From: Gammaproteobacteria bacterium
Lineage (GTDB): Bacteria; Pseudomonadota; Gammaproteobacteria; Arenicellales; JAJDZL01
NCBI GenBank assembly: GCA_022823625.1
Contig: JAJEHQ010000030.1
Coordinates: 1 to 64,000 of the forward strand
Direction of reading: 5' to 3'
DNA length: 64,000 bases
Shown in pieces: positions 29,956-56,595 of this stretch. A model generated the notes under the pieces. That model was not told the origin of the DNA. It saw only the letters and a list, made by a program, of their open reading frames with translations, and searched no databases. Each line of letters opens with the position of its first letter. Position 1 is the first letter of the stretch. Position numbers and translations under genes: made by a program.

Positions 29956-29987
29956 GCAAGGAAAGCACTGTTCTGTGCTTTCCTTGC
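29956..29987 (+). terminator. Hairpin terminator after proX copy 2
   Basis: Arms GCAAGGAAAGCAC (29956-29968) and its exact complement (29975-29987) form a 13-bp stem with a 6-nt loop 20 nt after the proX stop. No clear T-run follows, but position and strength suit the operon end. Confidence 0.6.
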
Positions 29988-32777: not shown

Positions 32778-32858
32778 CCATCTTCGGTTGCAGTTTTTCT
32801 TTATTTTGAATGTCGCTCAGCGATTCAGCAATTTAGGTAACTAACGGGTCACTTTTCT

Positions 32859-35022: not shown

Positions 35023-36099
35023 TTAAGAGATAGCGACTTCTCTCGTCCAGTTATGAGTGTCTTCGACCTCGCCTCGCTGAATTCCCAAGATTAACTTGTA
35101 CAGTTTTTGACTGAGTGGCCCGATCTCGCCATTTCCAATTACATACTGCTGGCCGCGATAGCCGATGCTGCCAACAGCATTGACCACAACTGCTGTCCCA
35201 CAACCAAATGCTTCCTGGAGTGTTTGATTTTTAATTCCGTCAATCACTTCATTGATATCAATCATTCTTTCTTCGCACTCAATTCCCATGTCGTGCGTCA
35301 ACTGAATGACACTGTCTCGAGTAACGCCTGGTAAGATAGTACCCCTCAACGGTGGGGTAACCAGTTTTCCGTCAAGGACGAAGCAGATGTTCATCTGTCC
35401 GACCTCTTCGATGTACCGGTGCTCAACCCCATCTAACCACAAAATCTGGGCAAAGCCCTCATCTCGTCCTTGACATGAAGCTAGAAAGGTTGCTGCATAA
35501 TTTCCTCCAACTTTGGCAGATCCAGTACCGCCTTGAATCGCGCGGGTGTACTTTTCCTCAGCTTTGAGTGCGACTGCAGGTGAACCCGCACCAAAGTATC
35601 CGCGTACCGGGGAGGTGATGATCAGAAAACGGTATCGATTTGCGGGCCGAACATCCAGACTACCTTCATCGGCGAAAAGTACGGGCCGAACGTAAAGCGC
35701 CTGACCTTCATAGGGTGGTACCCATTGATGATCAACTCGAACCAACTCCTCGATAGCACTCAGAAACGTTTCTAATTCGACTGGTGGTATGCACATTCTG
35801 ATGCATGAGTCGGTCAGTCGCTTGTGATTCATATCCGGACGAAAAAGCCGGATTTTTCCATCTACTCCGCGGTACGCCTTCATTCCTTCGAATATTGTCT
35901 GACCATAGTGAAGTGAGGCGGATACCGGATGAACTTCGATCAATCCAAATGGCTCAATTCGATGATTCTGCCATTGACCATCGATGTACTCCATGGCAAA
36001 CATATGGTCGCTGAATTGGGAGCCAAATTGTAAATTTTTGAAATCGATTTCTGATATTCGGCTATGTTTGGTTCTGCTGATTTTTATCTGGGTAACCAT
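35023..36099 (-). CDS. ilvE: Branched-chain amino acid aminotransferase
   Basis: A 358-residue fold-type IV PLP aminotransferase of the long (eukaryote-like) BCAT form. HYGQTIFEGMKAYRG (64-78), Lys196 in GGTGSAKVGGNYAA as the Schiff-base lysine, LWLDGVEHRYIEEVGQMNICF and the C-terminal AFGCGTAVVVNAVGSI are diagnostic. It catalyses the last step of Leu, Ile and Val synthesis and the first step of their breakdown. It stands alone on the minus strand and converges with the nuclease gene, 6 bp apart. Confidence 0.96.
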   Translation of the reverse strand: MVTQIKISRTKHSRISEIDFKNLQFGSQFSDHMFAMEYIDGQWQNHRIEPFGLIEVHPVSASLHYGQTIFEGMKAYRGVDGKIRLFRPDMNHKRLTDSCIRMCIPPVELETFLSAIEELVRVDHQWVPPYEGQALYVRPVLFADEGSLDVRPANRYRFLIITSPVRGYFGAGSPAVALKAEEKYTRAIQGGTGSAKVGGNYAATFLASCQGRDEGFAQILWLDGVEHRYIEEVGQMNICFVLDGKLVTPPLRGTILPGVTRDSVIQLTHDMGIECEERMIDINEVIDGIKNQTLQEAFGCGTAVVVNAVGSIGYRGQQYVIGNGEIGPLSQKLYKLILGIQRGEVEDTHNWTREVAIS

Positions 36100-37403: not shown

Positions 37404-38225
37404 TCAAATGACGAAAATCTCACCCATTCCGTGAATTTTGAGATCGCCGACAAAGCGTTTTCGAGGAGAACAGGAGAGAAGGGTTTGATGGATTCTTTCA
37501 TTACAACCTTCCATGTATGAACAAAAGATATTCCAATATGTGTTGTCTTTACATACCTGTTCGAAGAACGAATCAGCCGATAAACTCGGTTCGGATGCGC
37601 AAATGATTGTACCGCGCCGCATATGGGTGCCAGGTAGGTTCGCCTGACCGCCAAGTAACAGTACAGTGCCACTAATCATACTGCAACAGGCACCAACACC
37701 AACATCACCGTAGACTGCGATAAGCCCTCGTCTCATCCGATTTCCCAATCGAGACCCGGCGTTGCCTTTAACGACAATCCTTCCCTCATTCATACCAATT
37801 TTTTCACCTGGTAAGCTCGCTCCAAGCCCATTTCCTGCGTCTGCGTCAATCACGAGTTGACCACCATTTAAACCGCATCCTGAAAAATCACCAACTGAAC
37901 CTTCGACGTGAACACATCCTCCTCGCTGTGACTGCGCTGTAAACGAACCAGCGTTACCAATCACCTTAATCGTTCCGCGTTTCCAACCTGTACCGATTCC
38001 TTCTAACTTGGCATTTGAATTTTCGATCACAATGTTCTGGTGATCTTTTCCTGAAACTTTGAATAAGTCTCCAATCCGTAACGCATCGGGTCGACTTGAC
38101 ATCAGAACCTGCTCAGCCTTCTTGTTTGACATCCTCGAATCGACAATTTTTTTCAAAATTCTCATATCAACAGGAAAGTCCATTTTTTCCTTGCGAGTGA
38201 ATGTTAGTGGTTTTACAGAACTCAT
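37404..38225 (-). CDS. fhcC: Formyltransferase/hydrolase complex subunit C
   Basis: A 273-residue homologue of formylmethanofuran dehydrogenase subunit C (FwdC). It is a repetitive beta-helix protein: repeated glycine-rich turns such as GTIKVIGNAGSFTAQSQRGG, VEGSVGDFSGCGLNGGQL, VKGNAGSRLGNRMRRGLI and GDVGVGACCSMISGTVLLL are diagnostic of the GXGXXG repeat domain. In methylotrophs FhcABCD transfers the formyl group from H4MPT to methylofuran and hydrolyses it to formate. It is the last gene of fhcB-A-D-C. Confidence 0.94.
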   Translation of the reverse strand: MSSVKPLTFTRKEKMDFPVDMRILKKIVDSRMSNKKAEQVLMSSRPDALRIGDLFKVSGKDHQNIVIENSNAKLEGIGTGWKRGTIKVIGNAGSFTAQSQRGGCVHVEGSVGDFSGCGLNGGQLVIDADAGNGLGASLPGEKIGMNEGRIVVKGNAGSRLGNRMRRGLIAVYGDVGVGACCSMISGTVLLLGGQANLPGTHMRRGTIICASEPSLSADSFFEQVCKDNTYWNIFCSYMEGCNERIHQTLLSCSPRKRFVGDLKIHGMGEIFVI

Positions 38226-38292
38226 TACTTACTGTTTGCTATCAGATCGGTAGTTTCAATTCCAGATCACTTTGTTGGATTCAATTTGAAGC

Positions 38293-39210
38293 TTAAGCGC
38301 AGTCAATCAAGGAGTGTAGGTGAAAATGATAGGGTCCGAGTTTACCGCCAAAGTTTGAAGCGGTAATTTCCAAAATTCTTTCGGATCGTTCTCCCAAACA
38401 GGCGGCAACAATCCCGTCGCGCATCGCATCACCGACGGCAGATTCATTTAACCCATCAATGACTATCTCCAATACAGCATTTGCGTCATCTGGCAAATTG
38501 GTTGGCACCAGTCCTCGAAGAGTCGGGCAGTAAGCATCGTTTGTGGATGCAATGAGTCTGCGGTATTTTGAACCAACTTTGGAACCCGAACGTACCACAC
38601 CACCAGGAAAAGGTGTAATCACACTGGCTACTTTATTGATTGCTGCGACGGCAGATTCTGCTACACTCAGCGCACTGTCAATGTCTTTTGCGACAATCAG
38701 AAAATTTCCACCACCAATAGCATCAATCCGGTGTGTCACATCTTCGCAGACAAACTCGCCATCCATAACAGGAATTCGCCAGTACCGCTTGTTTCCTAGC
38801 TTCTTAGAGATCTGATAACCGTCACCGAAGTACCGGATTGCCCTTCCCAATGCAACTGGTTTGCCTTCGTCCATGCCAGAAAAAACTGCACTAGTTGGTG
38901 AAGTCAAAAGACATTGACCGACTCTGTCTCTTAGTTGGGCTTCCAACTGATCGCCCGACATTGCAAAGAACAAAATTGCAGCGCCTTCACGTCCATCTGG
39001 AGTTTGCGAAGGTTTCAGCCACCGCTCAACTCCTGCTTCAACCTTGCAGGCAATGACTGATGTCGCAAATCCTGTAACCGAGTTGACGGCATGCTTCAAC
39101 CAAACTGTGTTTCGCGCGGTTACCACGATACGAGTCGCTTTCATCGGAAATGCCTCAGCAAAGGTTTTCCGAATCAGTATGCCATTGAGTGTGATGTTGG
39201 GATGACTCAT
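38293..39210 (-). CDS. fhcD: Formylmethanofuran--tetrahydromethanopterin formyltransferase (Fhc subunit D)
   Basis: A 305-residue Ftr homologue. It begins ITLNGILIRKTFAEAFPMKATR, the canonical Ftr start, and has AILFFAMSGDQLEAQLRDRVGQC, GNKRYWRIPVMDGEF, IGGGNFLIVAKD, PFPGGVVRSGSKVGSKY and the C-terminal SNFGGKLGPYHFHL. It catalyses formyl transfer between H4MPT and methylofuran within the Fhc complex. It is 6 bp downstream of fhcA and 67 bp upstream of fhcC. Confidence 0.96.
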   Translation of the reverse strand: MSHPNITLNGILIRKTFAEAFPMKATRIVVTARNTVWLKHAVNSVTGFATSVIACKVEAGVERWLKPSQTPDGREGAAILFFAMSGDQLEAQLRDRVGQCLLTSPTSAVFSGMDEGKPVALGRAIRYFGDGYQISKKLGNKRYWRIPVMDGEFVCEDVTHRIDAIGGGNFLIVAKDIDSALSVAESAVAAINKVASVITPFPGGVVRSGSKVGSKYRRLIASTNDAYCPTLRGLVPTNLPDDANAVLEIVIDGLNESAVGDAMRDGIVAACLGERSERILEITASNFGGKLGPYHFHLHSLIDCA

Positions 39211-39216
39211 ACCTGC

Positions 39217-40863
39217 CTAATAGTAAACGACATCTGATCCGATCGCATTGGACATTTCATCGTCGCTGATTTTGAAATTGCTGAATCGTGTGGTTCTATA
39301 CATCTCAAAGTGTGGTTTTAGTTCCTTTTCAATTCCTGAATCGAAATCGACGCCTTGACGAAGGGTACGTCCTCTTGGCATATGAATGATTTCACCATTC
39401 CTGACAACGGTTTGACCGCCCTTGATGACGAGAACTGGATGCCGAAAAACGGTATCCCAGTTTTCAGCAGGGCGATAGAGAACAACATCAGCGACGGCAC
39501 CTGCTCCAAGATGTCCACGGTCTTTCAGTCCAAGTGACCGGGCAGGACCGGCACGTGTTAAAACAGCTATCTCGTACAGTGAGTATTCGCGCGAAATGTC
39601 TTTGATTGTGCTCATTTCCACTGCACCGCGATGAATGGTTGACAGCATGTCGTTTCGAAAACTTCGATCCATCAGTAATCGAATAAGGTGGGGATAAGTT
39701 GTAAAGGATGCCCCGTTTGGATGATCGGTGGTAAGGAATACCTGCCACGGATTGTCAATCGTTAGAAATAGCTCAAGTCCGATTGCCCACTGCAGAGCAT
39801 TGACAAAATTCTTTGACCGATATTTGAACGGGACGACACCACAGCCTGCTTCACATTCAATATCCATAAACGTAGATTTATTGGGTGATGCCAAATCTTT
39901 GGTTCTAAATTGTGCCATCGTATCGGCAGATATCGTTACTGTTTGTCCAAACATTACGTGTCCGACATCAACCGAGACGCTAGAGTCGCTGTTCACCGCC
40001 TGGGCAATCTCCAACGTTGCGGAGGAAAATTTCCGCTTGCCTTCAGTACCGTAGCTGTGAAACTGGACATGCGCCAGATGAATCGGTTTGCCATCAGCTG
40101 CATTGATCGTGCTTAACGTTGATCCAAAATTTCCAGGTATTCCCAGATTGCTGCAATGCGTATGCAAAGGATGGGACAATCCAATATCCGAAATTGCAGT
40201 GGTAAGGGAACGCACGATCTGTCCGGGAGTGATGCCAAAATGTGAATGGGGTTCATCCACATCCAGCTTTCGCTGATTGAATTTAAAAGCACTGATTCCA
40301 CCGGGATTGACTGCTTTGATCGCAATGCATTGAGTTGCATCCAACATCCATGCAACGTAGTCACGCAACTTCTGTGCATCAGCTTTTTCTGCCAGCAGTT
40401 TCAGAAAATAGTCATCATTTCCCAACACCAAATAACCACCAGTATCAAGGAGTGGGGTATCCGCCATTTCCAGATGTGCCTGTCGGGCGTTTGATGGCAC
40501 AACCGCAGGCTCAAAGCACAGCGTGTATCCAAGTCTGGCATATTCTTTACCAGTGATTAGAGTTGATGGCACGGCATGTTTACATACTGAATGATCAGCA
40601 TCAAGTTCATTCAAATGTTCAGGTTCAAAGTAGTTCGCCATCATCATTCGCGCAATGTTCGCTTTTCCGCCACCGATGTGAGAGTGAATGTCGATGCCAC
40701 CTGCCATGACAATCATGCCGTGCGCATCAATGACATGATCAATGTGCTGATCAGTTGCAGGGCAGGGCACTAGTCGATCACTATCGATATAGAGGTCTCG
40801 GACCTCTCCGTTGATACCATTGGCTGGGTCGTAGATGGTACCGCCTTTAATTACTGTCAACAT
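39217..40863 (-). CDS. fhcA: Formyltransferase/hydrolase complex subunit A
   Basis: A 548-residue amidohydrolase-superfamily protein of the FwdA/FhcA family. The metal motif HSH (H60, H62) lies in GGIDIHSHIGGGKANIARMM; later blocks are CFEPAVVPSNARQAHLEMAD, KAVNPGGISAF, HTHCSNLGIPGN and LTTDHPNGASFTTYPHLIR. It hydrolyses formylmethylofuran to formate and free methylofuran, the last step of H4MPT-linked C1 oxidation. Its ATG overlaps the fhcB stop by 7 nt. Confidence 0.96.
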   Translation of the reverse strand: MLTVIKGGTIYDPANGINGEVRDLYIDSDRLVPCPATDQHIDHVIDAHGMIVMAGGIDIHSHIGGGKANIARMMMANYFEPEHLNELDADHSVCKHAVPSTLITGKEYARLGYTLCFEPAVVPSNARQAHLEMADTPLLDTGGYLVLGNDDYFLKLLAEKADAQKLRDYVAWMLDATQCIAIKAVNPGGISAFKFNQRKLDVDEPHSHFGITPGQIVRSLTTAISDIGLSHPLHTHCSNLGIPGNFGSTLSTINAADGKPIHLAHVQFHSYGTEGKRKFSSATLEIAQAVNSDSSVSVDVGHVMFGQTVTISADTMAQFRTKDLASPNKSTFMDIECEAGCGVVPFKYRSKNFVNALQWAIGLELFLTIDNPWQVFLTTDHPNGASFTTYPHLIRLLMDRSFRNDMLSTIHRGAVEMSTIKDISREYSLYEIAVLTRAGPARSLGLKDRGHLGAGAVADVVLYRPAENWDTVFRHPVLVIKGGQTVVRNGEIIHMPRGRTLRQGVDFDSGIEKELKPHFEMYRTTRFSNFKISDDEMSNAIGSDVVYY

Positions 40864-42128
40864 TTGAATTGCGAGTAGATCTCTTCTAGCGTTTCAGCAC
40901 CAGAATGACCGTCGTTCATGTGAAGATTTTTAAGGTAGTGCGCTAATGTCAAGTCGGTTCGAAAAAGGTGTGCATCATGATCGAGCCCAGGGATTGCAAT
41001 CGGAATAAAAACATCCGCGTCTTCATGATCTTTACTGGAAAGCACAATTTTTTGCATGGAGCAATCCGGCATTTCAATGGATTGATCCAATCCCCCGACC
41101 CAAATGACAAGATCTGTGTCTCCGCGATTGATAATCGAATCCCATGCGTAGTAATCTGGATGATGTTCCGGGCCGCCACTTCTGAAACTAAGCGGTAGCG
41201 GCTTACCGTATCTCCATGTCGAAACAGCGTTGGCAGTGGTGGTTGATGGAGTCGTTGTCAGCATGAGACCGGCTGCTCGACGCGACTGGTTGATTACATC
41301 AATCAACCGAAAGATAGAGTCTACTACCAGGTCGCCTAACGGAAATGAAATCTCTTCTGCTGCCCAGACAAACACAGTGTAATCCGACTGTTCAAGGTCC
41401 TGGACTAACGATTGAATTGCAGAGATTGGGAAACTGTGAGTGATTGGAGCACGATCTTTTCTTTTTCCCAACTGGTTCTGAATGACTGATATTACATGTC
41501 CTGATTGCTGCAAATCACACTCGATGGTAACGCTAACATCAATCTTTTCCAGAATCGTTGCAAATTCCTCACATGGCTCCCCAATGACGGTGATCTTTCG
41601 AGGTCTCTTGAACCGAGGATTGTCTGTTTTTGAGAAATCAAGAATCTCTATCAGTCGTGGAAATATTTTTGGAATTTGTGAGCCAATCAGCACCAACATG
41701 TCAGCTCTGTTTCGCGTTTCAGAAAGAGTGGTGAAGTACCCACCATTGGTCTGAATGTGGCTCGCGTTAATTCCAAAAGAGCGATTTGAATATTGATCAA
41801 TTGTGGCGTGCAAGTACTCAACCAGGTTCAGTGCAGTACGAATACCAGCAACATCAGTCATCAACCCTGTGACTAGAGGTAGTTTTGCATTCGAGATTAG
41901 ATTTACTGCGGCCTGAATAGCCGTCTTTCGAGTCACGAACTTTCCGTTAACCCGGGGTTTCAGAGCAGTGCGCGTACTTGCTTCAAGAAAGCCTGCTTTA
42001 GATAACGGGCAATCCGATGAATCGATTTGAAATGAATTGCCTTCAACTTGCAGGCTTAAGTCATCGCAAAGCAGCCCGCAAAAAGGACACACGACATCAA
42101 GGAACCTGTACATTTTCTGATCAGTCAT
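40857..42128 (-). CDS. fhcB: Formyltransferase/hydrolase complex subunit B
   Basis: A ~423-residue FwdB/FmdB-like protein. ATG at 42128 is preferred to an in-frame TTG four codons upstream. The N-terminal VVCPFCGLLCDDL keeps three closely spaced cysteines as in FwdB. The molybdopterin-type fold continues with KLPLVTGLMTDVAGIRTALNL and LVIWVGGLDQSIEMP. In Methylorubrum-type Fhc complexes this subunit lacks the metal-pterin cofactor of the archaeal dehydrogenase and has a structural role; whether this one differs needs a structure-based alignment. It is the first gene of the minus-strand fhc operon, divergent from the beta-RFAP synthase gene. Confidence 0.92.
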   Translation of the reverse strand: MTDQKMYRFLDVVCPFCGLLCDDLSLQVEGNSFQIDSSDCPLSKAGFLEASTRTALKPRVNGKFVTRKTAIQAAVNLISNAKLPLVTGLMTDVAGIRTALNLVEYLHATIDQYSNRSFGINASHIQTNGGYFTTLSETRNRADMLVLIGSQIPKIFPRLIEILDFSKTDNPRFKRPRKITVIGEPCEEFATILEKIDVSVTIECDLQQSGHVISVIQNQLGKRKDRAPITHSFPISAIQSLVQDLEQSDYTVFVWAAEEISFPLGDLVVDSIFRLIDVINQSRRAAGLMLTTTPSTTTANAVSTWRYGKPLPLSFRSGGPEHHPDYYAWDSIINRGDTDLVIWVGGLDQSIEMPDCSMQKIVLSSKDHEDADVFIPIAIPGLDHDAHLFRTDLTLAHYLKNLHMNDGHSGAETLEEIYSQFKC

Positions 42129-42140
42129 TTTTAGCTGCAA

Positions 42141-42365: not shown

Positions 42366-43352
42366 ATGAAGAGCATTAAGATCACCGCACCAGCGAGATT
42401 ACACCTGGGATTTGTTGGACTTGGAGGGCGGTCAGCAAAGACTCATGGTGCTCTGGGATTGGCGATTGACCAGCCTGCCACTGTGCTGGAAGCGCACCAC
42501 CATCCACAGTGGAAATCTTCGGGAATCGCTCCGAACAAGACTGTGAAATATATGAACACTGTCAGAGCGGCTTTTGCGCTGAAACAGCCAATTTACATAA
42601 AATCAATTCAGAGTATTCCAGAGCACATCGGACTCGGTTCAGGAACCCAGTTGGCATTGTCGGTTGCCACAGTCTGTATGCAACTTAATGGTCATGATGT
42701 ATCACCAGAAAAGATTTCCGGACTGCTAGGTCGAGGTTCCCGATCCGGTATCGGGACAGCGGCATTTTTCAAAGGTGGTTTTCTGGTCGACTGCCAGGCA
42801 GAAAAAACCCGTTACGCAAGAGCAATATCCAAACGACTGGAATTTCCGGAAAGTTGGCGAATTATCCTGATCATTGATGAGACCTACCAAGGCATACATG
42901 ATGAATCGGAAGTCAATGCATTCGAAAGCTTGGGTGGATTTTCTGAAAAACTGAGTACCGATTTGAAGGGTGTATTACTGAATCAGGTCGTGCCGGCGTT
43001 GGAAGTCCAAGATATCACAGCATTTGGCAGTGGAATCTCGTTGATTCAGAAACAGGTTGGAGACTTCTTTAAGCCAGCTCAGGGCGGTAGATTTCTGAGT
43101 CAGCAAGTGGCGAAGATTCTGGATTATGCTGAACGAAATGGCGCTGCCGGAATTGGTCAAAGTTCGTGGGGACCCACTGGATTCATAATTGTTGATGGCA
43201 CAGCAGCCGCCCTTCGAATGAAATCAAATCTGGAGAACCTGTCACGTGGCAGTGATGTACGATTTGAAGTACGTGCCCCGCGAAATTCTGGAGCAACGAT
43301 CGAGGTGGAACTTTTGGATGCTCTAGCTCATCATGCCATGACCGGGAATTGA
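42366..43352 (+). CDS. Beta-ribofuranosylaminobenzene 5'-phosphate (beta-RFAP) synthase
   Basis: A 328-residue GHMP-kinase-fold protein of the beta-RFAP synthase family, the first committed enzyme of tetrahydromethanopterin biosynthesis: it joins 4-hydroxybenzoate (or pABA in some lineages) to PRPP with loss of CO2. Evidence is ITAPARLHLGFVGLGG, IPEHIGLGSGTQLALSVA (GHMP phosphate-binding glycine loop), RGSRSGIGTAAFFKGGFLVD and the C-terminal GAAGIGQSSWGPTGF. Its place next to mtdB and mch fits. mtdB follows with a strong site. Confidence 0.93.
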   Translation: MKSIKITAPARLHLGFVGLGGRSAKTHGALGLAIDQPATVLEAHHHPQWKSSGIAPNKTVKYMNTVRAAFALKQPIYIKSIQSIPEHIGLGSGTQLALSVATVCMQLNGHDVSPEKISGLLGRGSRSGIGTAAFFKGGFLVDCQAEKTRYARAISKRLEFPESWRIILIIDETYQGIHDESEVNAFESLGGFSEKLSTDLKGVLLNQVVPALEVQDITAFGSGISLIQKQVGDFFKPAQGGRFLSQQVAKILDYAERNGAAGIGQSSWGPTGFIIVDGTAAALRMKSNLENLSRGSDVRFEVRAPRNSGATIEVELLDALAHHAMTGN

Positions 43353-43371
43353 AGTGAACACAGGAGGAGTT

Positions 43372-44265
43372 ATGTCAAAACGCAGGATAATGCACATGAT
43401 TACACCAACTGACAGTGTAAGTCCCTTCGATGTCAACATGGCCGTCGATGCGGGTTATGCGGTCATTGTTCCACACTGTGGAATCGGTGAATCAAGTGTT
43501 GCCGACTTTGTTCAGGATGCAATTTTTTCGCGACCACCAAAGAGTGCATCAACAACTGGAATGTTTATCGGAGGTGGTGATGTCAATCGAGCTTCCGAGA
43601 TGCTGGAAATTGCAAAAGGAGCAATGGTGCCTCCATTTGAAGTGTCTGTGTTAGCCGACCCCAATGGTGCATTTACGACTTCAGCTGCTTTAGTTGCAGT
43701 CATTGAAAGGTGTTTGAAAGAACATGCCTCTGCAAATCTGAAAGGCAGCAATATGAAGATCTTTGGAGGTGGTCCTGTCGGATTGTCGACTGCAGTTCTT
43801 GCAAAAGAGCGCGGTGCTTGTGTGAGCCTCATCAGATTGACAGCGAGTGCGGATGATGGATCAGTGAGTGAATTTTCGGCACGATTTGGCGTTGACATTG
43901 ACTCACGGCGGGCAGTCGAAAATTCAGAAAGACTTGCAGAAGCTGCTGATGCTCAAGTGATCGTAACCACTGCAAAGGCAGGCATTCAGGTTTTAGGTCA
44001 GGAAGCCGTGGATCAGGCAAGCGGCCTGCTGATCGCTGCAGACGTGAATGCAGTACCGCCAACCGGAATTGAAGGGGTCGAGGTGATGCACAATGGAGAT
44101 GACGTTGTCTGCAAGTGGGGCTCTTTCAAGTCAATTGGTGCCTTGGGTATTGGACGCGTCAAGTACAAAACACAGTTGGAAATGTTGAAGTCAATGCTAA
44201 CTTCAGAAGATTCACTGGTGTTGGGTCTGTCAGATGCCTATACCGAAGCCGCTCGGCACGCTTGA
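43372..44265 (+). CDS. mtdB: NAD(P)-dependent methylene-tetrahydromethanopterin dehydrogenase
   Basis: A 297-residue enzyme oxidising methylene-H4MPT to methenyl-H4MPT with NAD(P)+. The start SKRRIMHMITPTDSVSPFDV and MAVDAGY are the family signature; the nucleotide-binding loop is IFGGGPVGLSTAVLAKERGA and the C-terminus has LLIAADVNAVPPTGIEG and IGALGIGRVKYKTQ. The ATG at 43372 is chosen because GGAGGAG precedes it, rather than the GTG at 43354. MtdB versus the NADP-specific MtdA is decided by these motifs and by the H4MPT-only context. Confidence 0.94.
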   Translation: MSKRRIMHMITPTDSVSPFDVNMAVDAGYAVIVPHCGIGESSVADFVQDAIFSRPPKSASTTGMFIGGGDVNRASEMLEIAKGAMVPPFEVSVLADPNGAFTTSAALVAVIERCLKEHASANLKGSNMKIFGGGPVGLSTAVLAKERGACVSLIRLTASADDGSVSEFSARFGVDIDSRRAVENSERLAEAADAQVIVTTAKAGIQVLGQEAVDQASGLLIAADVNAVPPTGIEGVEVMHNGDDVVCKWGSFKSIGALGIGRVKYKTQLEMLKSMLTSEDSLVLGLSDAYTEAARHA

Positions 44266-45385
44266 GGTGCAGGATTGTCTCCTAATCGGTTTGACGGTTC
44301 GCTCTCTGGTCGCTTCGGTTCATAAGGCTGGAATCGGCGCTTATGCCCTGGATTTGTTTAGCGATCTGGACACTCGAGAAAAGTCAATTAAGTCGTTCAC
44401 TGTCGAGTACGATGGACGCGGATTTGAATCGAATTCTCTATTTGCGCGCATCGAACAGTTAGACCCGAATGCGACACTTCCAGTCGTGTATGCTGGTGGA
44501 TTTGAACACAATCCAAGCCAGATTGAGCGAATTGCTGATGGCCGACAGGTGCTAGGAAACTCAGCGTCGGTACTGGCCAAACTCAAGAACCCCAGGCTTT
44601 TTTCAAACACAGTCAGCGAGTTGGGAATTCCAGCGCCTCGAACTCGTTTTGATTGTCCGGAAAATTCCGACGGCTGGCTCTACAAAAGTGCTGGCGGCTC
44701 TGGAGGTCTTGAAGTAAGGCGAGCAACAGAATTCGATTTTGAGTGCCACTCAGATAATTACTATCAGGAATTCAGGAGTGGACAGATCGTAACAGCAACT
44801 GTGCTTTGTACTGACAAGCACACTCAAACCGTGGGATTTTCTGAGCAATGGTGTGCTGAGTCACATTCAGACGGTGAGTTTATTTATGGTGGAGCTGTAG
44901 CACGTAGTTCTAACTCGCTAGAATCGAATGTTAGAAGCTCAATAGAAAATGCTGCAGCTTTGCTGGCCGCACATTATCAATTTCGAGGGCTAGTATCTCT
45001 CGATACCATCGTTCAGAATGATGAATGGTGGCTATTGGAAGTGAATCCGCGACCTGGAGCTACGTTTGAGTTGCACGAAGGTGCTGAATCATTTCTGGCG
45101 GCACATTGTCTTGCATTTTCTGATCAAAGTCCGACATTGAAGTCCGTCACAAATTTGGGAGAATATACTGCGCACTCTGTCATCTATGCCTCAAATGCAA
45201 TGACTTTACCTTCAGATTGGGTATGGCCGATGTGGGTTCGGGATCGGGCTGCACCGGGAGAGTCATTTGAACCGGGCGACCCGGTCTGTACTGCTTATGC
45301 TACAGCTGGAAGCTCCGAAGTGGCAAGACAACTTGTTGAAGACAGACACCATCATATAGTTGATATGATTGGTAAACTGCGGTAG
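44234..45385 (+). CDS. ATP-grasp superfamily protein of the H4MPT cluster
   Basis: A 383-residue ATP-grasp protein. The N-terminal pre-ATP-grasp segment is LLIGLTVRSLVASVHKAGIG; the ATP-grasp fold is marked by GWLYKSAGGSGGLEVR (glycine-rich loop with the ATP-binding Lys), VSLDTIVQNDEWWLLEVNPRPGATFE (metal-binding Glu and Asn). Homologues of this type are found in C1 gene clusters of methylotrophs and are thought to help build the cofactors; the reaction is unproven. Start uncertain: the ATG used overlaps mtdB by 32 nt, a GTG at 44267 is possible. mch follows after 9 bp. Confidence 0.85.
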   Translation: MPIPKPLGTLEVQDCLLIGLTVRSLVASVHKAGIGAYALDLFSDLDTREKSIKSFTVEYDGRGFESNSLFARIEQLDPNATLPVVYAGGFEHNPSQIERIADGRQVLGNSASVLAKLKNPRLFSNTVSELGIPAPRTRFDCPENSDGWLYKSAGGSGGLEVRRATEFDFECHSDNYYQEFRSGQIVTATVLCTDKHTQTVGFSEQWCAESHSDGEFIYGGAVARSSNSLESNVRSSIENAAALLAAHYQFRGLVSLDTIVQNDEWWLLEVNPRPGATFELHEGAESFLAAHCLAFSDQSPTLKSVTNLGEYTAHSVIYASNAMTLPSDWVWPMWVRDRAAPGESFEPGDPVCTAYATAGSSEVARQLVEDRHHHIVDMIGKLR

Positions 45386-45394
45386 ATCTAAAGA

Positions 45395-46372
45395 ATGGAG
45401 AATAGACGCGACAACTGGCCTGGTGTCAATCAATTGTCGGCACCTTTGGTTGATCAACTGGTTGCAGATGCGTCAGATTTGGAGATTCAGGTGAGTCGGA
45501 GTGCTAATGACAGTCGAATTATTGATGCAGGCCTCAAATCTCCTGGCTCCGTTGAGGCAGGACGCCGAATTGCTGAAATTTGCATGGCTGACCTGGGGCA
45601 TGTAACGATTGTTCCTTCAGATATCACAGAGATGAATTTTCGTATCGTGCATGTCGATTCCGAGCATCCGGTATTGAGTTGTCTGGGCAGCCAATACGCC
45701 GGTTGGAGTCTGAAATACGACGCTGCAAGAAAGTTTCGGGCCTTGGGTTCAGGACCTGCTCGTGCACTGGCGGTTAAGGAACCGCTATTTGAAGAGTTAG
45801 GTTACCGTGATGAATTTGACCGAACTTGCCTGATCATTGAAACGTCAGATTTACCACCAGACGATCTACTGGACAAAGTCAGTCACGATTGTGGTGTTTC
45901 GCCCGATAGTCTGACAGTGATTTTGACTCCGACGGGCAGTTTGGCTGGTGTAACTCAGATAGCAGCGAGGGTGGTTGAGGTGGCTCTTCATAAAGCTCAT
46001 GAAATGAAGTTCAATCTGGATTCCATTTTAAGTGCTGAAGGGTCAACGCCATTACCGCCTCCAACAGATGATGATCTGCTGGCCATGGGCCGTACGAATG
46101 ACACGATTCTGTTTGCAGGGTCGGTCTCAATTCGAGTCGATTGTGGCGACGATGCGGCACGTCAGTTAGCAGAATCCATGCCGAGCAGCAATTCCAGAGA
46201 CTACGGCAAACCCTTTGCTCAAGTGTTCAAAGACTACAACTATGATTTTTTTGAAATAGATCCGATGTTGTTCAGTCCAGCACAAGTGACCGTCCATGAA
46301 ATCTCCACTGGGCATACATTCACCGGAGGAGCCTTGGACTACGGACTTCTCTGCAAATCGTTCTTTGGCTGA
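45395..46372 (+). CDS. mch: Methenyl-tetrahydromethanopterin cyclohydrolase
   Basis: A 325-residue cyclohydrolase converting methenyl-H4MPT to formyl-H4MPT. Family blocks: NDSRIIDAGLKSPGSVEAGR, ISTGHTFTGG, LSCLGSQYAGWSLKYD, GSGPARALAVKEPLFEELGY, VILTPTGSLAGVTQIAARVVE, and DYGKPFAQVFKDYNYDFFEI with the end DPMLFSPAQVTV. Length equals the family norm. It supplies the substrate of FhcD. Its TGA shares a base with the start codon of the next gene (TGATG). Confidence 0.96.
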   Translation: MENRRDNWPGVNQLSAPLVDQLVADASDLEIQVSRSANDSRIIDAGLKSPGSVEAGRRIAEICMADLGHVTIVPSDITEMNFRIVHVDSEHPVLSCLGSQYAGWSLKYDAARKFRALGSGPARALAVKEPLFEELGYRDEFDRTCLIIETSDLPPDDLLDKVSHDCGVSPDSLTVILTPTGSLAGVTQIAARVVEVALHKAHEMKFNLDSILSAEGSTPLPPPTDDDLLAMGRTNDTILFAGSVSIRVDCGDDAARQLAESMPSSNSRDYGKPFAQVFKDYNYDFFEIDPMLFSPAQVTVHEISTGHTFTGGALDYGLLCKSFFG

Positions 46373-47280
46373 TGTCTGAGATTCGAATTGTTGTTTTTAC
46401 TGACGCCAGGGGATGGCACGAAAAACATCTTGAAAGTGCTTTTCTGGGTGTTGGTGCCAATCTACATTTTGTTTCGCTATCTCAGTGCAGATTTACTGAT
46501 CATACCGATTTCGGCGGGTTAACCATACCTGGATTAAAGAATGCATTACCGCAGGGAGTTTTCGTAAGAAGTATTTCAGCCGGCACCTTCGAACAGGTTA
46601 CTTTGAGGCTTGGGTTTCTTCACGCTTTGGCGGCAATGTCTGTACCGGTGATGAATTCTGCCAGTGTGATCGAAAGAACGGTTGACAAGAGCATGACCAG
46701 TCACCTCCTGCAAAAGGAACAGGTTGCAACAGTACCTTCGTGGACTTGCGAGTCTAGAGAATCTGCAACGCAACAACTCGAAATGCTACTGTCTGAGGGC
46801 AAGAAAGTGGTTCTTAAGCCACTATTTGGTTCAAGGGGGAGAGGGTTGAGATTAATTGAGTCGACTGACCACCTACCTGGGCCGGAAGAAGTCAATCATG
46901 TTTACTATCTTCAGGAATACATTCCGTCAAAAGACAGATATTGGCGAGATTGGCGGGTTATGGTTGTCGACGGAAAGGCAATTTGTGCAATGGAACGCCG
47001 GTCTGATCAATGGATAACAAATCGAGCACAAGGGGCTCAGTGTTTGCCGACAAAGCTGGATTTTGAGCCACAGCAATTGGCTGAGCGCGCTGCTGATGCA
47101 GTTGGTGCAGATTATGCTGGCGTCGATTTGATTTGTACTAAAGAAGGAAAATGGCTGGTGCTTGAGGTCAATGGTGTACCAGCCTGGCAGGGTTTGCAAG
47201 CGGTTTCAGAGGTGAATATTGCAGGCCAGTTTGCCGATAAGATGGTGAAAATGACTTTCCTTGGTAATTTCTCAACTTAA
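46372..47280 (+). CDS. RimK-like ATP-grasp ligase of the H4MPT cluster
   Basis: A 302-residue ATP-grasp protein of the RimK/MptN type. Motifs: VIERTVDKSMTSHLLQKEQV, the ATP loop VVLKPLFGSRGRGLRLIE, QEYIPSKDRYWRDWRVMVVDG, and the metal-binding YAGVDLICTKEGKWLVLEVNG-type end with VNGVPAWQGLQ. Archaeal MptN adds glutamate to tetrahydromethanopterin and CofF does so for F420; related genes occur in methylotroph C1 clusters. The likely role is L-glutamate ligation to the H4MPT or methylofuran side chain (inference). It is the last gene of the plus-strand operon. Confidence 0.9.
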   Translation: MSEIRIVVFTDARGWHEKHLESAFLGVGANLHFVSLSQCRFTDHTDFGGLTIPGLKNALPQGVFVRSISAGTFEQVTLRLGFLHALAAMSVPVMNSASVIERTVDKSMTSHLLQKEQVATVPSWTCESRESATQQLEMLLSEGKKVVLKPLFGSRGRGLRLIESTDHLPGPEEVNHVYYLQEYIPSKDRYWRDWRVMVVDGKAICAMERRSDQWITNRAQGAQCLPTKLDFEPQQLAERAADAVGADYAGVDLICTKEGKWLVLEVNGVPAWQGLQAVSEVNIAGQFADKMVKMTFLGNFST

Positions 47281-49963: not shown

Positions 49964-50500
49964 CTATCTTCTCAAGAGGAGTGAGCGAAAAAACTCCACA
50001 AAAGATTGCAGGTAGCTTCTATCGACAAGAGCATTGACCTTGTCATTCGAATGCCACCAAATAACTAGTTCATAGTCGATAATTCGAGTCTTCACCACTC
50101 GGTTCTGTGAAATTCGATTGCAAAATATATCAGTGGAACAGTAGTCACCAATAATCTCCAATATTGATTCACCTTGAATTGTAAGCATGCATTTCCCGTG
50201 ACTGATATCGAAAAACTTCTTCCGATGTTCAGAACTAAATTTGGCTGGTTGCTGTTGTTCCAGTACGACATATACCGAAAAAGGACTAAATCGCAATAAT
50301 TGGATACCATTCGAAGCAGCCATCTGTCCTGGTTGGATGTCAAGGTGCGTGATTGAATGACAGGTATGGTCCAGTTCATTTTTACTTCTAAACTGGCCTT
50401 CATAAACGAAAACCGGGCATTCAATAATCGAAATGCCGTGGCCGATCATCTCACACTCGATGAAGTCAAAAACGGTTTCACGGACCAGATAGTCAGCCAT
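49964..50500 (-). CDS. soxG: Sarcosine oxidase gamma subunit (position-supported)
   Basis: A 178-residue protein overlapping the end of soxA by 8 nt, last in the soxB-D-A-G order. Its sequence fits the diverged SoxG/YgfZ-GcvT-like small subunit: SRNEL-like start region, ASNGIQLLRFSPFSVYVVLE, CSTDIFCNRISQNRVVKTRI and WWHSNDKVNALVDRSYLQSFVEFF, where the ending helix is typical. In isolation the match is weak, so the call rests mainly on context. It folds with SoxA to bind tetrahydrofolate and the covalent FMN region. Confidence 0.82.
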   Translation of the reverse strand: MADYLVRETVFDFIECEMIGHGISIIECPVFVYEGQFRSKNELDHTCHSITHLDIQPGQMAASNGIQLLRFSPFSVYVVLEQQQPAKFSSEHRKKFFDISHGKCMLTIQGESILEIIGDYCSTDIFCNRISQNRVVKTRIIDYELVIWWHSNDKVNALVDRSYLQSFVEFFRSLLLRR

Positions 50501-53402
50501 TCAATTGCTCTCCTGCTTCATCGTAAAAGTTTGTGGAGCGTACCCTGACCTCGGTTGATTGACCAGTAATTGGTGATACCACCCAAATCGTGTCGTCATA
50601 CCGGTGATGGCCATTGCGCAGAAGGCCCAGAGCGATCCACATGTTTAGAGTGGGGCTGTAAATGGATGCTGTTAAGTGTCCGATAACATCTTGTCGGGTG
50701 CCTTTTGAATATTGTTGGGAAGCAAGTACTCCGCCCGTTGATATTGTTGAATGTTGGTTCGTGGCAGTTAATCCAACCAACTGCATTCTCTCAGTACTTT
50801 TTAAGCCGGATCTATTGAGGAGGGAACGGCCAATAAAGTCCTTATTTACAGATACCATCTTTTCCAGCCCGAGATCGTAGGGGGTTGTTCTACCGTCGAT
50901 TTCCCGTCCCACGCTAATGTGACCTTTCTCGATTCGCAATACGTCCAGCGCTTCAAGACCGTAAGGTGTTAGACCGTAGTTCTGACCGATGTCTACAAGT
51001 TGATCAATAAAACTGTTTGCGTATCCTGCTGGAATATTGACTTCAAAACTCAACTCACCAGAGTAGCTGATAGAGTAAATTCGGCAGGGCACGTCAGTGT
51101 CTACGACTCCCACTCTGATTGAGGCAAATGGAAATTCACGTCGGTCTGTTTCAAAATCAAAATTAAATTTGCTCAATACATCACGTGATCTTGGTCCTGC
51201 GATTGCAATTGTCGCCCAATGCTCGCTAACGTTTGCCAGTGTTACATTCAATTCTGACCATTGAGTTTGAGCAAGTCTTGTCATCCAGCGCCATACTGCC
51301 TCTGAATTTGCTGTTGTTGCGGTAACAACATAGTGGTGATCTCCCATCCGTGCAATAGTGCCATCATCAAAAAGGATGCCGTCTTCCCGAAGCATCAAGC
51401 CATAGCGAACCTTACCGATCGGCATAGCAGCAACGTTACTGCAGTAGAGTCTGGAAAGAAACGTTTCTGCATCGGGACCTTTAATTTCGAATTTGCCAAG
51501 CGTGGACATGTCTACGAAACCCACACTGCTGCGAACTGCACGGACTTCTCGGTTGACAGCCTGTTCCAGAGTCTCGTCTTCTTGTGGAAAATACCGGGAA
51601 TAAAGCCAGTCACCGGATGTTTGAAATACACAGTTCAATTTTTTAAGTGCTTTATGGAGTGGCGTTCTGCGAATGGGTTTCATGAAATCGCCTATTCTCG
51701 CTCCAGCAATCGCTGAAAATGGTACCGGGGAGTAGGGCGGACGAAAAGTGGTGTGACCCATTGCTTCTGGTTGTTCTCCGATGGCTGCAGCAATGCGTTG
51801 AGATGCGTTGACCCAACTGGTTTTGCCCTGATCGGTGCCCATCCCTGTCGCGGTATACCGCTTTACCAACTCAATGTCGTGATAACCCTCTGCTACGGCC
51901 TGTGTCAGGTCAGCTTGAGTCACATCATTCTGAAAATCGACAAACGCGTTGTGACCGGCAACTGGTTTTATGCTCACAGGAAAAGAAGCCGACTCAACTG
52001 TAGCGGGTTGTGAAACCGTGAAATCTGCTGTAACTTCTATCTGAGACATGGCTTGATGTGCCTGGTACTGGCCATCTTTGAGAATGGAATTCAAATCAAA
52101 GATTCCGCGGCTTGCACCAACCGAGAACAGTGGCCCGTTTTGGTTGGGAGGAATGGGCACCTGCATGTTTTTATCAACACTGAGTTTGCCTTGGATATGA
52201 GCTGCAAGATGCACAGTTGGCGTCCAACCGCCGGATACACACATAAGGTCGCAGGTGTACCGGACTTTTTCACCATTTGATTTATTGACTGAAACTGCTT
52301 TGACTCTGTGTCGTCCATGTACATTGACGATCTCTTGGTCTGGTTTCAAGCACTCGACAACTTCAATACCAGCGGCTCCACAGTTAGCAATCGCTGCATC
52401 TCTTTCAGTTTCATCTGCAATTGCTACAAATGCCTTAGTTCCCGGCTTGACAGCATAGCAATTGATGTACTTTCTAACCGCACCAGCTAGCATGATGCCT
52501 GGTCGGTCATTGTTGGGAAATGTCAGGGGTCTTTCGATTGACCCACTCGCCAATAGAATTCGATCAGCACGAATTTTCCAGAGAATATCAGAATCATTAA
52601 TTGAACGCTTTTGATAAGCAAGTGCCAGCCCATGATCGTAGTGTCCAAAGACCATTGTGTGCGAGAAAAGATCAACATTAGGATTCTGTTTCAACTCTTC
52701 AACAGTCTGTGAAATCCATTGATTCCCGGCAACTTCTCCGACGAAACCCTTTCGCCACAAAAGGCTACCTCCAAAAACTGGCTCTTGCTCAACCAGAACG
52801 ACGCGAATTCCGTTTCTGGAACAGGACAATGCCGCACTCAAACCCGCTGGTCCACTTCCAATGATCAAAACTTGGCAGTATTTGTGTCTCTTATCCGCAG
52901 TTTCAGCAAAGGTACCCGACCCATTAATTTGAACACGTCCTATGCCAGCAAAGATCCTGATCACTTTCTCATAAATTCGATGCCAGCCCCAACTAGGCCA
53001 AAGAAAGGTTTTGTAGTAGAAGCCTGTTGTTAATAACCGAGAGCCGCACGACAATACACCAAATGCATCAAATTTTCTAGAAGGCCAGTTATTCTGGCTT
53101 TTGACTACTAGTCCCTCTGAAAGCAATACCTCGGTGGCTTTCAAGTTCGGGACAGGTCCGTCTCCGGGCATTGCACACTCCACAATTGCGGAAGGTTCTT
53201 CGATACCGCTCGATAGTATCCCGCGGGGGCGGTGGAGTTTTATTGATCGTCCAACCAGATGAATGTTATTCGCCAGTAGTGCTGAGGCGACCGTATCACC
53301 AGCAAATCCAGTGAGTTTTCGGCCATCAAAAATGAACTCTAAAGGTTTGGACCGGTCAATCGCGTTCCCGAATTCTAATGAGGAAATGCGGTTAGTCTGC
53401 AT
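50493..53402 (-). CDS. soxA: Sarcosine oxidase alpha subunit
   Basis: About 969 residues from the ATG at 53402 (AGGAA upstream; an earlier in-frame start at 53429 lies within soxD). Domains: an N-terminal Fer2_4-like region with FIFDGRKLTGFAGDTVASALLAN, an NAD/FAD-binding domain with LIIGSGPAGLSAAL (GSGPAG at 182-187), and a C-terminal GcvT/aminomethyltransferase domain with VDMSTLGKFEIKGPDAE and YGLEALDVLRIEKGHISVG. Heterotetrameric sarcosine oxidase demethylates sarcosine to glycine, giving methylene-tetrahydrofolate and H2O2. It overlaps soxD and soxG. Confidence 0.95.
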   Translation of the reverse strand: MQTNRISSLEFGNAIDRSKPLEFIFDGRKLTGFAGDTVASALLANNIHLVGRSIKLHRPRGILSSGIEEPSAIVECAMPGDGPVPNLKATEVLLSEGLVVKSQNNWPSRKFDAFGVLSCGSRLLTTGFYYKTFLWPSWGWHRIYEKVIRIFAGIGRVQINGSGTFAETADKRHKYCQVLIIGSGPAGLSAALSCSRNGIRVVLVEQEPVFGGSLLWRKGFVGEVAGNQWISQTVEELKQNPNVDLFSHTMVFGHYDHGLALAYQKRSINDSDILWKIRADRILLASGSIERPLTFPNNDRPGIMLAGAVRKYINCYAVKPGTKAFVAIADETERDAAIANCGAAGIEVVECLKPDQEIVNVHGRHRVKAVSVNKSNGEKVRYTCDLMCVSGGWTPTVHLAAHIQGKLSVDKNMQVPIPPNQNGPLFSVGASRGIFDLNSILKDGQYQAHQAMSQIEVTADFTVSQPATVESASFPVSIKPVAGHNAFVDFQNDVTQADLTQAVAEGYHDIELVKRYTATGMGTDQGKTSWVNASQRIAAAIGEQPEAMGHTTFRPPYSPVPFSAIAGARIGDFMKPIRRTPLHKALKKLNCVFQTSGDWLYSRYFPQEDETLEQAVNREVRAVRSSVGFVDMSTLGKFEIKGPDAETFLSRLYCSNVAAMPIGKVRYGLMLREDGILFDDGTIARMGDHHYVVTATTANSEAVWRWMTRLAQTQWSELNVTLANVSEHWATIAIAGPRSRDVLSKFNFDFETDRREFPFASIRVGVVDTDVPCRIYSISYSGELSFEVNIPAGYANSFIDQLVDIGQNYGLTPYGLEALDVLRIEKGHISVGREIDGRTTPYDLGLEKMVSVNKDFIGRSLLNRSGLKSTERMQLVGLTATNQHSTISTGGVLASQQYSKGTRQDVIGHLTASIYSPTLNMWIALGLLRNGHHRYDDTIWVVSPITGQSTEVRVRSTNFYDEAGEQLNG

Positions 53403-53685
53403 CACAGTTCCTGGAGGATTCCTCCTCATCGCCTGCCGACGGTTCGCTGAATTCGTGAGTTAGAGAGTTTCGGGTAGTTGATATCCAGCGTTCGCACCCG
53501 GATCTGTGATACCAAATCTCTCGGATTTCACCCTTGGCGTTTTCTCTCAAGTGAACTGCCTTGTGCCAGTCATCAATTGAAGTTTCGGGAGAGTGACGAA
53601 GATCGGGGAATTTAACATTAGCACCGCCGTAATCAAACTCGCATTGATCACGCGGACCGCACCAGGGACAGGGAATCAGCAACAT
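53392..53685 (-). CDS. soxD: Sarcosine oxidase delta subunit
   Basis: A 97-residue zinc-binding subunit starting MLLIPCPWCGPRDQCEFDYG at the ATG at 53685. The Zn ligands Cys-x2-Cys, then HRSGCERW further on, and the block IREIWYHRSGCERW-ISTTRN are diagnostic of SoxD. It lies 4 bp after soxB and overlaps the soxA start by 11 nt. Confidence 0.94.
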   Translation of the reverse strand: MLLIPCPWCGPRDQCEFDYGGANVKFPDLRHSPETSIDDWHKAVHLRENAKGEIREIWYHRSGCERWISTTRNSLTHEFSEPSAGDEEESSRNCDAD

Positions 53686-53689
53686 GACA

Positions 53690-54958
53690 TCAATGGAGCC
53701 AGGTGTAAGGGCCAGTACCGCTGTCGTCAATCAGATTTCCTGCTTCAAATCGACTGAGCGAGAAAGGTGCAATTAGATCTGGAGGTTTTTCTTGAGTCAG
53801 CAATTCAGCCATCAGCAAACCGACTGCTGGGGTTGCCTTAAATCCGGAATAGCCCCATCCGCTATTGAGATACAGGTTTTCGATCGGGGTGCTACCCAGA
53901 ATTGCGTTTCCATCCATCGGGATGTCAGCAGTGCCAGACCAATGACGCATGAGTCTGAGTCCTGACAGAAAGGGAAAGATTTGGATTGATCTAACAATAA
54001 CATCTTCAATACTGGAAAACGAGCCTCGTTTTGCATATGACGGATACCCATCCGTCGCACCACCCAAAATAAACTCTCCCTTGTCAGTCTGACTGATATA
54101 GCAAAGTCCTGCGTTGTAGTTCACAACGACATCAAGGGCAGGTTTAACTGGTTCGGATACAAATGCCTGGACATTAAGCGATTCAATCGGCAGCAACAAT
54201 CCAGCGAGTCTAGCAACCTCAGAACTTGCACCAGCAACACTGATCAAAACCTTCTCACATCCGATCACACCTTGGTTCGTCCTTACCCCTGTAACTTTTC
54301 CAGCATTGATCTCGAAACTGGTAACTGGACAGTTTTGAACAACATCAACTCCAGCTTCAACAGCAGATTTTGCGAATCCCCAGGCCACGGCATCATGTCG
54401 AACGATGCCTCCTTTCTCCTGAACCAGTCCGCCAACAATGGGAAAGCGCGTTGATTCACTGAGGTTGATTTGTGGCACTCGCTTCTGGAGTTGATGTCGA
54501 TCAAGAATTTTTGCTTCTGCACCCCGCAGGCACATGGCATTCGCCCGCAGAATGAAGTCCTCAAGTTCGCCATCAGAGTGTGCAAGATCAATGTATCCCC
54601 TAGGTGAATACATCAAGTTAAACCCAAGTTCTGACCCGAGAGTTCCCCACAACTGCAGGGCCAGATTTTTCAGTTCAAAACTTGCGTCCAGCAGATAGTC
54701 GGAGCGAACGATTGCTGTATTTCGAGCAGTATTTCCACCGCCCAGCCAACCGGCTTCCAATACCGCTACGTTAGTTTCGCCGAAGCGAGAGGAAAGATAG
54801 TGTGCAGTTGCGAGTCCGTGACCGCCGCCTCCAACTATGATGATGTCGTAGTGTGGCCGAAGCTCTGGAGTAGGGAAGATGTTCGGCCAGAAATTAGACC
54901 CTAACGAATTTCGTAACAGCGAGAAACCTGAATACTTGACTTTACGCGATTTGCGCAC
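53690..54958 (-). CDS. soxB: Sarcosine oxidase beta subunit
   Basis: A ~422-residue FAD/FMN subunit. Homology begins at YSGFSLLRNSL, and the FAD motif IIIVGGGGHGLATAHYL (GGGGHG near 43-48) is followed by GWLGGGNTARNTAIVRSDYL, the SoxB hallmark that includes the flavin-attachment area. The end WGYSGFKATPAVGLLMAELL also fits. The GTG at 54958 gives the normal length; a TTG at 55000 inside the upstream gene is the longest alternative. It is probably cotranscribed with the AruI-like gene. Confidence 0.93.
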   Translation of the reverse strand: MRKSRKVKYSGFSLLRNSLGSNFWPNIFPTPELRPHYDIIIVGGGGHGLATAHYLSSRFGETNVAVLEAGWLGGGNTARNTAIVRSDYLLDASFELKNLALQLWGTLGSELGFNLMYSPRGYIDLAHSDGELEDFILRANAMCLRGAEAKILDRHQLQKRVPQINLSESTRFPIVGGLVQEKGGIVRHDAVAWGFAKSAVEAGVDVVQNCPVTSFEINAGKVTGVRTNQGVIGCEKVLISVAGASSEVARLAGLLLPIESLNVQAFVSEPVKPALDVVVNYNAGLCYISQTDKGEFILGGATDGYPSYAKRGSFSSIEDVIVRSIQIFPFLSGLRLMRHWSGTADIPMDGNAILGSTPIENLYLNSGWGYSGFKATPAVGLLMAELLTQEKPPDLIAPFSLSRFEAGNLIDDSGTGPYTWLH

Positions 54959-54984
54959 AAGAATTAGAACTTCACAGGAGGTGT

Positions 54985-56595
54985 TTAACCGATGAGCCAA
55001 TCATCGTCTTCAACTACCACAATGATTGATGGACCTTCGTGTTCAAGTGCGTCATTCAAGGCACTGAAAAAGTCTTCCTGATTACGAGTCAGCGACCCTG
55101 GGCATCCAAAGGCATCAGCGAGTTTAACAAAATCCGGTGCGCTCGGGTTGACACCAATTTCCGGAATCTTTCGTTTGACCATACCATCCCGAATCATGGC
55201 ATAGCTGTGATTGTGCCAAATCACAATTGGAATGCAAAGAGATTCTTCAACCGCAGTGGCGACTTCGTTGACAGTAAACATAAATCCACCATCTCCGACC
55301 AGCGCCACGACGGGTGTGTCGGGTTTGGCGAGTTTCGCACCAATCGCGCCGGGTACGGCACAACCCAGCGTGCCGAACCCGGCAGGGTAAAACCAGGTAC
55401 GTGGCAATTCCACTTTCATCACTGCTGTCCCGGTGTAGACAACCTGGGCTATATCTCCCATGATGATGGTTTCATCTGGGAGTACAGAGCGCATTGCGTC
55501 GAGTACCTTAATGTGCTGCCGTTCAACATCGGTGAATTCATTCTCCTGATCAGTTCGCACCTGATCAAGTTCTGCAATAACATCTCTTTCACTACCGGAT
55601 ATTTCTCTTGCCAGCCATTCGGTGATCATCATCTCACAAGCCGCTTTTGAATCGCCGTGCACTGCGACAACTGCAGGAAATGCGTCATTGAAACGCGACG
55701 AATCGATGTCAATGCGGATAACTTTACCATTGACAGGCAAATCGTAAATAAAACTGTCAGCTTCAGCGAGTTCTGTACCGATTGCAAGAACTACATCTGC
55801 TTTAGCGAGATAGCGTTGGACTGCAGGGCTCAAAACACCGCCAGTCAAACTCAGGGGGTTGGAGTCCGGGACGATACCTTTACCTGCATTGGACGAGATG
55901 ACACCTGCATTTACGAGTTCCGCCAGCAATATGACCTCCTTGGAAGCATGTTGAGCACCGCCGCCTACCGCAATAACCGGTGAAGTCGCTTTGCTTAGCA
56001 GATCAACAGCTGAATTGATTGCAGCAGGGGTCGGAAGTGGTTTGTCTGAAGGAGCTGCAATATGCCATTCTTCATCAACAGGTAATTCCATGACATCAAT
56101 CGGAATGGCGATATGAACCGGACGCGGTCGGTCTGATTCAAAAATGGTGAATGCTCTTGCGATTAATTCCGGCACTTCATTCGGGTGATGAACCATCGCA
56201 CTGAACGCAGTCAGTGGTCGGGTGATGGCACAAAGATCGGTGGTTTCATGCAGTCTGCCCCAGCCTTTACCCAACGAAGGGCTGTCGTTTGCACTCGAAA
56301 TAACAAGCATGGGAATTGAGTCTGCGTAAGCCTGACCGATTCCAGTTGTAGCATTGGTCACACCTGGCCCGGTGATCAGTGCGCAGACTCCAGGCTTACC
56401 AGTCACGCGAGCGAAGCCATCGGCCATGAAACTGGCTCCCTGTTCGTTTCTGGGAGTTACGGCTTTCACCTTGCTCGCTTCGATGCCTCTGTAAAGTTCC
56501 AGTGTGTGCTCACCTGGAATTCCAAACACCAGTGACACGCCGTATTGCGCCAGCAGGTCCATCAAAGCTTCTCCGCAGGTTCTAGTTTTGATCAT
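54985..56595 (-). CDS. ThDP-dependent acetolactate synthase-like enzyme, AruI (5-guanidino-2-oxopentanoate decarboxylase) type
   Basis: A 536-residue ThDP enzyme. The catalytic Glu51 is in TPRNEQGASFMADGFARV, preceded by VFGIPGEHTLELYRG; the ThDP/Mg motif starts GDGGFMF at 434 and ends near WHNHSYAMIRDG. LITGPGVTNATTGIGQAYADSIPML and the GRLHE block match the AruI group, which decarboxylates 2-ketoarginine in arginine transaminase catabolism, better than acetolactate synthase. Sulfoacetaldehyde acetyltransferase and oxalyl-CoA decarboxylase look less likely. The AGGAG site before ATG is good. It is the first gene of the sox transcript and divergent from hisC. Confidence 0.85.
   Translation of the reverse strand: MIKTRTCGEALMDLLAQYGVSLVFGIPGEHTLELYRGIEASKVKAVTPRNEQGASFMADGFARVTGKPGVCALITGPGVTNATTGIGQAYADSIPMLVISSANDSPSLGKGWGRLHETTDLCAITRPLTAFSAMVHHPNEVPELIARAFTIFESDRPRPVHIAIPIDVMELPVDEEWHIAAPSDKPLPTPAAINSAVDLLSKATSPVIAVGGGAQHASKEVILLAELVNAGVISSNAGKGIVPDSNPLSLTGGVLSPAVQRYLAKADVVLAIGTELAEADSFIYDLPVNGKVIRIDIDSSRFNDAFPAVVAVHGDSKAACEMMITEWLAREISGSERDVIAELDQVRTDQENEFTDVERQHIKVLDAMRSVLPDETIIMGDIAQVVYTGTAVMKVELPRTWFYPAGFGTLGCAVPGAIGAKLAKPDTPVVALVGDGGFMFTVNEVATAVEESLCIPIVIWHNHSYAMIRDGMVKRKIPEIGVNPSAPDFVKLADAFGCPGSLTRNQEDFFSALNDALEHEGPSIIVVVEDDDWLIG

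Follow-up and report, generated by a model that had tools for sequence, protein, structure and literature searches.

The window analysed here (the whole stretch of 64,000 nucleotides) contains a compact C1 cluster in which two ATP-grasp ORFs flank mch, and it raises the question of which cofactor side chain the encoded ligases would glutamylate and how the acceptor of the glutamates would be obtained. The cluster is composed of fhcBADC on the minus strand (37404-42140) and, divergent from it, mptG-mtdB-myfA-mch-myfB on the plus strand (42366-47280), with Mch identified unambiguously by its family model and mtdB likely starting at 43372, where the alignment to MtdB begins. The earlier note had reported the two ORFs as flanking mch and translationally linked to it: both are present, and the genes are tightly packed (32 nt of overlap between mtdB and the 383-residue ORF, 44234-44265; a 9-bp gap from the latter to mch, 45385/45395; one base, 46372, in common between mch and the 302-residue ORF), so that translational coupling is plausible. 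The order mtdB-myfA-mch-myfB recurs in the congeners as well as in members of the Alpha-, Beta- and Gammaproteobacteria (named methylotrophs included), and the same arrangement was found in annotated plasmid records and in the 80 named loci listed. Given this conserved order and the dN/dS values of the 383- and 302-residue genes against the nearest congener (0.25 and 0.20, respectively), the locus is not a product of chance.

Features of the C1 cluster and its flank in the window, with the matches on which the assignments are based
Feature	Position	Strand	Evidence
IlvE-type aminotransferase, downstream of fhcC	35023..36099		
fhcC	37404..38225	-	TIGR03122, 176.3 bits (cut-off 130.65)
fhcD, Fhc formyltransferase subunit	38293..39210	-	TIGR03119, 411.9 bits (cut-off 292.6); PDB 6s6y chain D, 1.3e-89
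fhcA, Fhc hydrolase subunit	39217..40863	-	54% identity to Azospirillum FhcA; PDB 6s6y chain A, 4.7e-129
fhcB	40857..42140	-	34% identity to Azospirillum FhcB; no match in Pfam search
mptG-like beta-RFAP synthase (H4MPT synthesis)	42366..43352	+	TIGR00144, 118 bits (cut-off 113.5)
mtdB, methylene-H4MPT dehydrogenase	43354..44265	+	PF09176, 1.3e-32
myfA (orfY), 383 aa, putative ATP-grasp enzyme adding glutamate to the methylofuran tail	44234..45385	+	ATP-grasp_3 (PF02655), 6e-14
mch, methenyl-H4MPT cyclohydrolase	45395..46372	+	TIGR03120, 391.7 bits (cut-off 228.8)
myfB (orf5), 302 aa, putative RimK/MptN-like ligase extending the polyglutamate tail of methylofuran	46372..47280	+	TIGR00768, 151.9 bits (subfamily cut-off 143.4); Pfam RimK, 1.2e-23

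The 383-residue protein, which the earlier note had left without an assigned reaction, is MyfA by its sequence relationships, and the role of OrfY under that name had already been published in 2021 (PMC8141765). It shares the ATP-grasp_3 family with MfnD (tyramine:glutamate ligase) and matches the latter weakly (14.7 bits). In a tree with 34 MyfA and 18 MfnD rows it is placed inside the MyfA clade, whereas the MfnD paralogs encoded in the same clusters as MyfA form a clade of their own (100/100 support for each), so that the tree separates the two families and rejects an identity with MfnD. The AlphaFold model describes a full-length ATP-grasp fold (pLDDT 94.4) that is closest to PurT and PurD (PurT, Z 31 over 348 residues). 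By its domain, its position between mtdB and mch in an archaeal-like C1 cluster, its merely partial similarity to MfnD and its separate clade, the protein resembles MyfA of Methylobacillus flagellatus (Mfla_1659), and by analogy it would add glutamate to methylofuran-Glu1. It is a divergent member, with an identity of 24-33% to MyfA proteins outside the genus (a range that refers to these relatives and not to Mfla_1659 itself), and in contrast to the setting of Mfla_1659 its source genome is devoid of the enzymes that make the published MyfA substrate.

The 302-residue protein is likewise recognizable from sequence as MyfB, situated directly downstream of mch as is the RimK/MptN-like ligase Orf5 of Methylorubrum extorquens (META1p1764). 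Its best equivalog model is that of MptN, the H4MPT:alpha-L-glutamate ligase of methanogens (MptN_Meth, 180 bits), which is the closest described family, yet the score amounts to half of the cut-off of 350; it also stays below the cut-offs for RimK, the ligase of ribosomal protein S6 (48.8 of 331 bits), CofF (65.2 of 300) and LysX (134 of 276). Matches to MptN_Meth and RimK-family models are a property of all 43 MyfB relatives (43/43). As for MyfA, the structure prediction is confident (pLDDT 94.8) and returns an ATP-grasp fold, here of the RimK/LysX type (Z 30-31; RimK, Z 30.7). The protein differs from other MyfB in several near-invariant residues that are altered genus-wide (G90S, P121V), and it is 41-49% identical to MyfB from other genera (these, rather than META1p1764 itself, being the reference). 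Following the published analogue, it would elongate the methylofuran polyglutamate tail.

The functions of both families were established through deletions in methylotrophs at the same cluster positions, by which OrfY was renamed MyfA and Orf5 became MyfB (Hemmann 2021, PMC8141765). Loss of MyfA led to the accumulation of MYFR-Glu0/Glu1, loss of MyfB arrested the tail at MYFR-Glu2, and overexpression of MyfB produced tails of up to 40 glutamates; thus, MyfA adds glutamate to methylofuran-Glu1 and MyfB lengthens the polyglutamate tail (PMC8141765). The ligases are therefore members of known families with published roles, and the question from which we started is mostly answered in the literature. 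The earlier interpretation, that glutamate-ligase-type ATP-grasp enzymes act on the side chain of a C1 cofactor, holds in this general form, but H4MPT drops out as the substrate: the dH4MPT of M. extorquens lacks alpha-hydroxyglutarate, the group glutamylated by MptN, and with this acceptor missing from bacterial dH4MPT and the MptN cut-off missed, glutamylation of H4MPT is rejected. The tail would belong to methylofuran.

The origin of the acceptor was approached by profile searches in the source genome and five marine congeners of the order Arenicellales (G001-G005, of which G003 and G004 are single-contig assemblies). MfnB (PF04476), MfnF (TIGR03123) and MfnE (profile built here) were each found in 0/6 genomes. 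The Orf17 profile (also built here) gave matches at the level of HisA (55-63 bits), as against 149-280 bits in 9/9 controls, and the MfnA profile (TIGR03812) gave generic decarboxylase-level matches only. No MfnD-type paralog was detected in the six genomes, in which the corresponding matches were fragments of ORFs of ~1,090 residues, probably carbamoyl-phosphate synthase. Since MfnE also escaped detection in two controls with strongly reduced genomes and was fragmentary in a third, its absence alone is weaker evidence. By the same search approach Fae was recovered from five of the six genomes and MyfA from the same five (both are absent from G002, 87% complete), and FhcABCD was found in the source genome, G001, G004 and G005. 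Thus, as far as profile searches reach (very divergent enzymes would escape them), the known head-group genes (mfnB, mfnE, mfnF, orf17, mfnD) are absent from the genus. Contamination or missing contigs are an unlikely cause, as Fae and MyfA were found in both single-contig congeners.

This configuration is exceptional within the class sample. The whole set is present and clustered in G006, a relative that belongs to a different family of the order. Among the 50 FhcD-bearing genomes (out of 369 sampled class-wide), 47 encode MfnB and 45 MfnF, and the source genome is the sole one without both; the other genomes with a gap keep the second of the two genes, are mostly fragmented or incomplete, and in several cases have a congener that carries the missing one. 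Genomes in which mfnD is missing or the clusters are lost in part were already known (PMC5020050); our literature searches found no description of a head-less configuration, nor any publication on H4MPT in this genus.

The H4MPT side, in turn, is retained, which indicates that the loss concerns the methylofuran head. The genus keeps orf7 and fae, and the source genome has a second C1 locus (contig C19, L031:10066-16003) with the order orf7-fae-PCD-folK/folP fusion-orf19-orf20-dmrB; pterin dehydratase, orf19, orf20 and dmrB occur in the second locus of 3/5 congeners, and in all five the locus is preceded by HtrA and a two-component system. Orf17 is essential for methylofuran in M. extorquens, with a role listed as unclear. 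Its absence, shared with the head genes in a genus that retains the tail ligases, lends independent genomic support to a role in head synthesis and not in the synthesis of H4MPT or of the tail.

The remaining system appears to be alive. The fhc, myfA and myfB genes are under purifying selection (dN/dS 0.13-0.25, source genome vs. nearest congener), FhcD and FhcA keep 92/104 and 105/119, respectively, of the positions that are near-invariant elsewhere, and the metal-site His/Lys residues of FhcA are retained. Three of 20 conserved basic positions of FhcA are replaced (R107E, R214G, R374Q) in 4/4 genus members; at most one of the 20 is lost in the other most divergent FhcA sequences listed (top eight). 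Judged from these alignments, the arginine replacements may reflect an altered cofactor interface, though the genus also shows the greatest overall divergence.

We consider it probable (about 80%) that the two ligases are MyfA and MyfB and that the acceptor of their tail comes from a source other than the known methylofuran head pathway. The likeliest options are a different carrier head or an imported one, and production of the same furan head by unrecognised enzymes is less likely. For the first of these options we tentatively suggest, while regarding it as doubtful in this specific form, that the carrier of the genus bears a methylofuran-type polyglutamate tail, attached by MyfA and MyfB, on a non-furan head built by novel enzymes, to which Fhc would have adapted through the FhcA arginine changes. 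That the genus makes ordinary methylofuran with head enzymes that are non-homologous to the known ones or have diverged beyond recognition is a possible, if unlikely, account: non-homologous replacement of mfnD is documented in Methylobacterium (PMC5020050), the formyl-acceptor site of FhcD looks ordinary (with most near-invariant positions kept), and an IlvE-type aminotransferase adjoins fhcC both in the window and in G001 (69% identity between the two), the bacterial MfnC transaminase being unidentified. This account would, however, require the replacement of four consecutive functions (MfnB, MfnE, MfnF and Orf17) while orf7, orf19, orf20, dmrB and PCD on the H4MPT side remained recognisable. 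In addition, the second C1 locus, when searched for replacement head genes, showed no novel conserved gene, its neighbours (HtrA, the two-component system, FolK-FolP and a BepA-like protease) offering nothing suggestive.

Import of a methylofuran core or short form from neighbouring organisms, to be completed by the cell's own MyfA and MyfB, would fit the pattern of loss well, as the missing steps are exactly those before MyfA and the tail steps are retained; moreover, the Arenicellales include sponge-associated families and some named congeners stem from symbiont metagenome projects. We regard it as rather unlikely: no protein that could carry such a compound into the cell was identified, and methylofuran core is not known to occur as a free pool. 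That the cluster is a decaying remnant without a functional carrier is very unlikely: partial H4MPT clusters have been described in Nitrosococcus species (PMC5020050) and G002, which lacks MyfA and Fae, could be read in the same way, but the ORFs are intact in five species, the active-site motifs are conserved and the genes evolve under the constraint described above. Least probable is that the MyfA and MyfB homologs glutamylate another target (ribosomal protein S6, F420, LysW or H4MPT); the RimK/LysX fold of MyfB would allow it, yet the scores lie far below the RimK, CofF, LysX and MptN cut-offs and the linkage to mch and fhc is fixed.

Returning to the reading of a MyfA/MyfB tail on an acceptor from outside the known pathway, we infer the following course from the cited work. 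Formaldehyde bound to H4MPT would be oxidised by Fae, MtdB and Mch to formyl-H4MPT, from which FhcD would pass the formyl group to the amine of the carrier and FhcA would free formate. MyfA, using ATP, would add the glutamate after the first (by analogy with Methylobacillus and Methylorubrum), and MyfB would then extend the chain to many glutamates. The polyglutamate tail would anchor the formyl carrier in Fhc and allow it to swing between the two active sites. A lineage with Fhc and tail ligases and without the head pathway thereby constitutes a natural experiment, and its configuration leads one to expect a carrier head of a new kind, a head pathway that has escaped recognition, or the sharing of a cofactor within the microbial community.

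Outside the cluster, the window (26568-34193 and 50493-56595) encodes ProVWX, an MttB-family methyltransferase, DAO oxidases, a sarcosine-oxidase-alpha-like protein and a TPP enzyme. With betaine uptake, MttB-type demethylation and sarcosine-type oxidation encoded so close by, methylated amines suggest themselves as the C1 source, and the region is probably one of methylated-amine degradation that could supply formaldehyde.

Several further loci deserve mention. In G003 (C1, ~3,075,000-3,095,000; L033, L121-L124) the genes mptG-mtdB-myfA-mch-myfB lie apart from fhc, and a search reaching about 50 kb from the cluster found no Fhc gene; if Fhc were absent from this genome, the tail ligases would have outlasted the enzyme they serve. 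Azospirillum sp. 412522 (L073) harbours a second, Phyllobacterium-like myfA/myfB/fae/fhc set, which suggests lateral transfer. In two loci of gammaproteobacterial MAGs (L044, L052) MyfB and a divergent MyfA are encoded on opposite strands, with no mch nearby. Lastly, a MAG labelled as Rhizobium sp. (L049, L054) encodes MyfA and MfnD nearly identical to those of Thiobacillus thioparus and is probably a mislabelled or contaminated bin.
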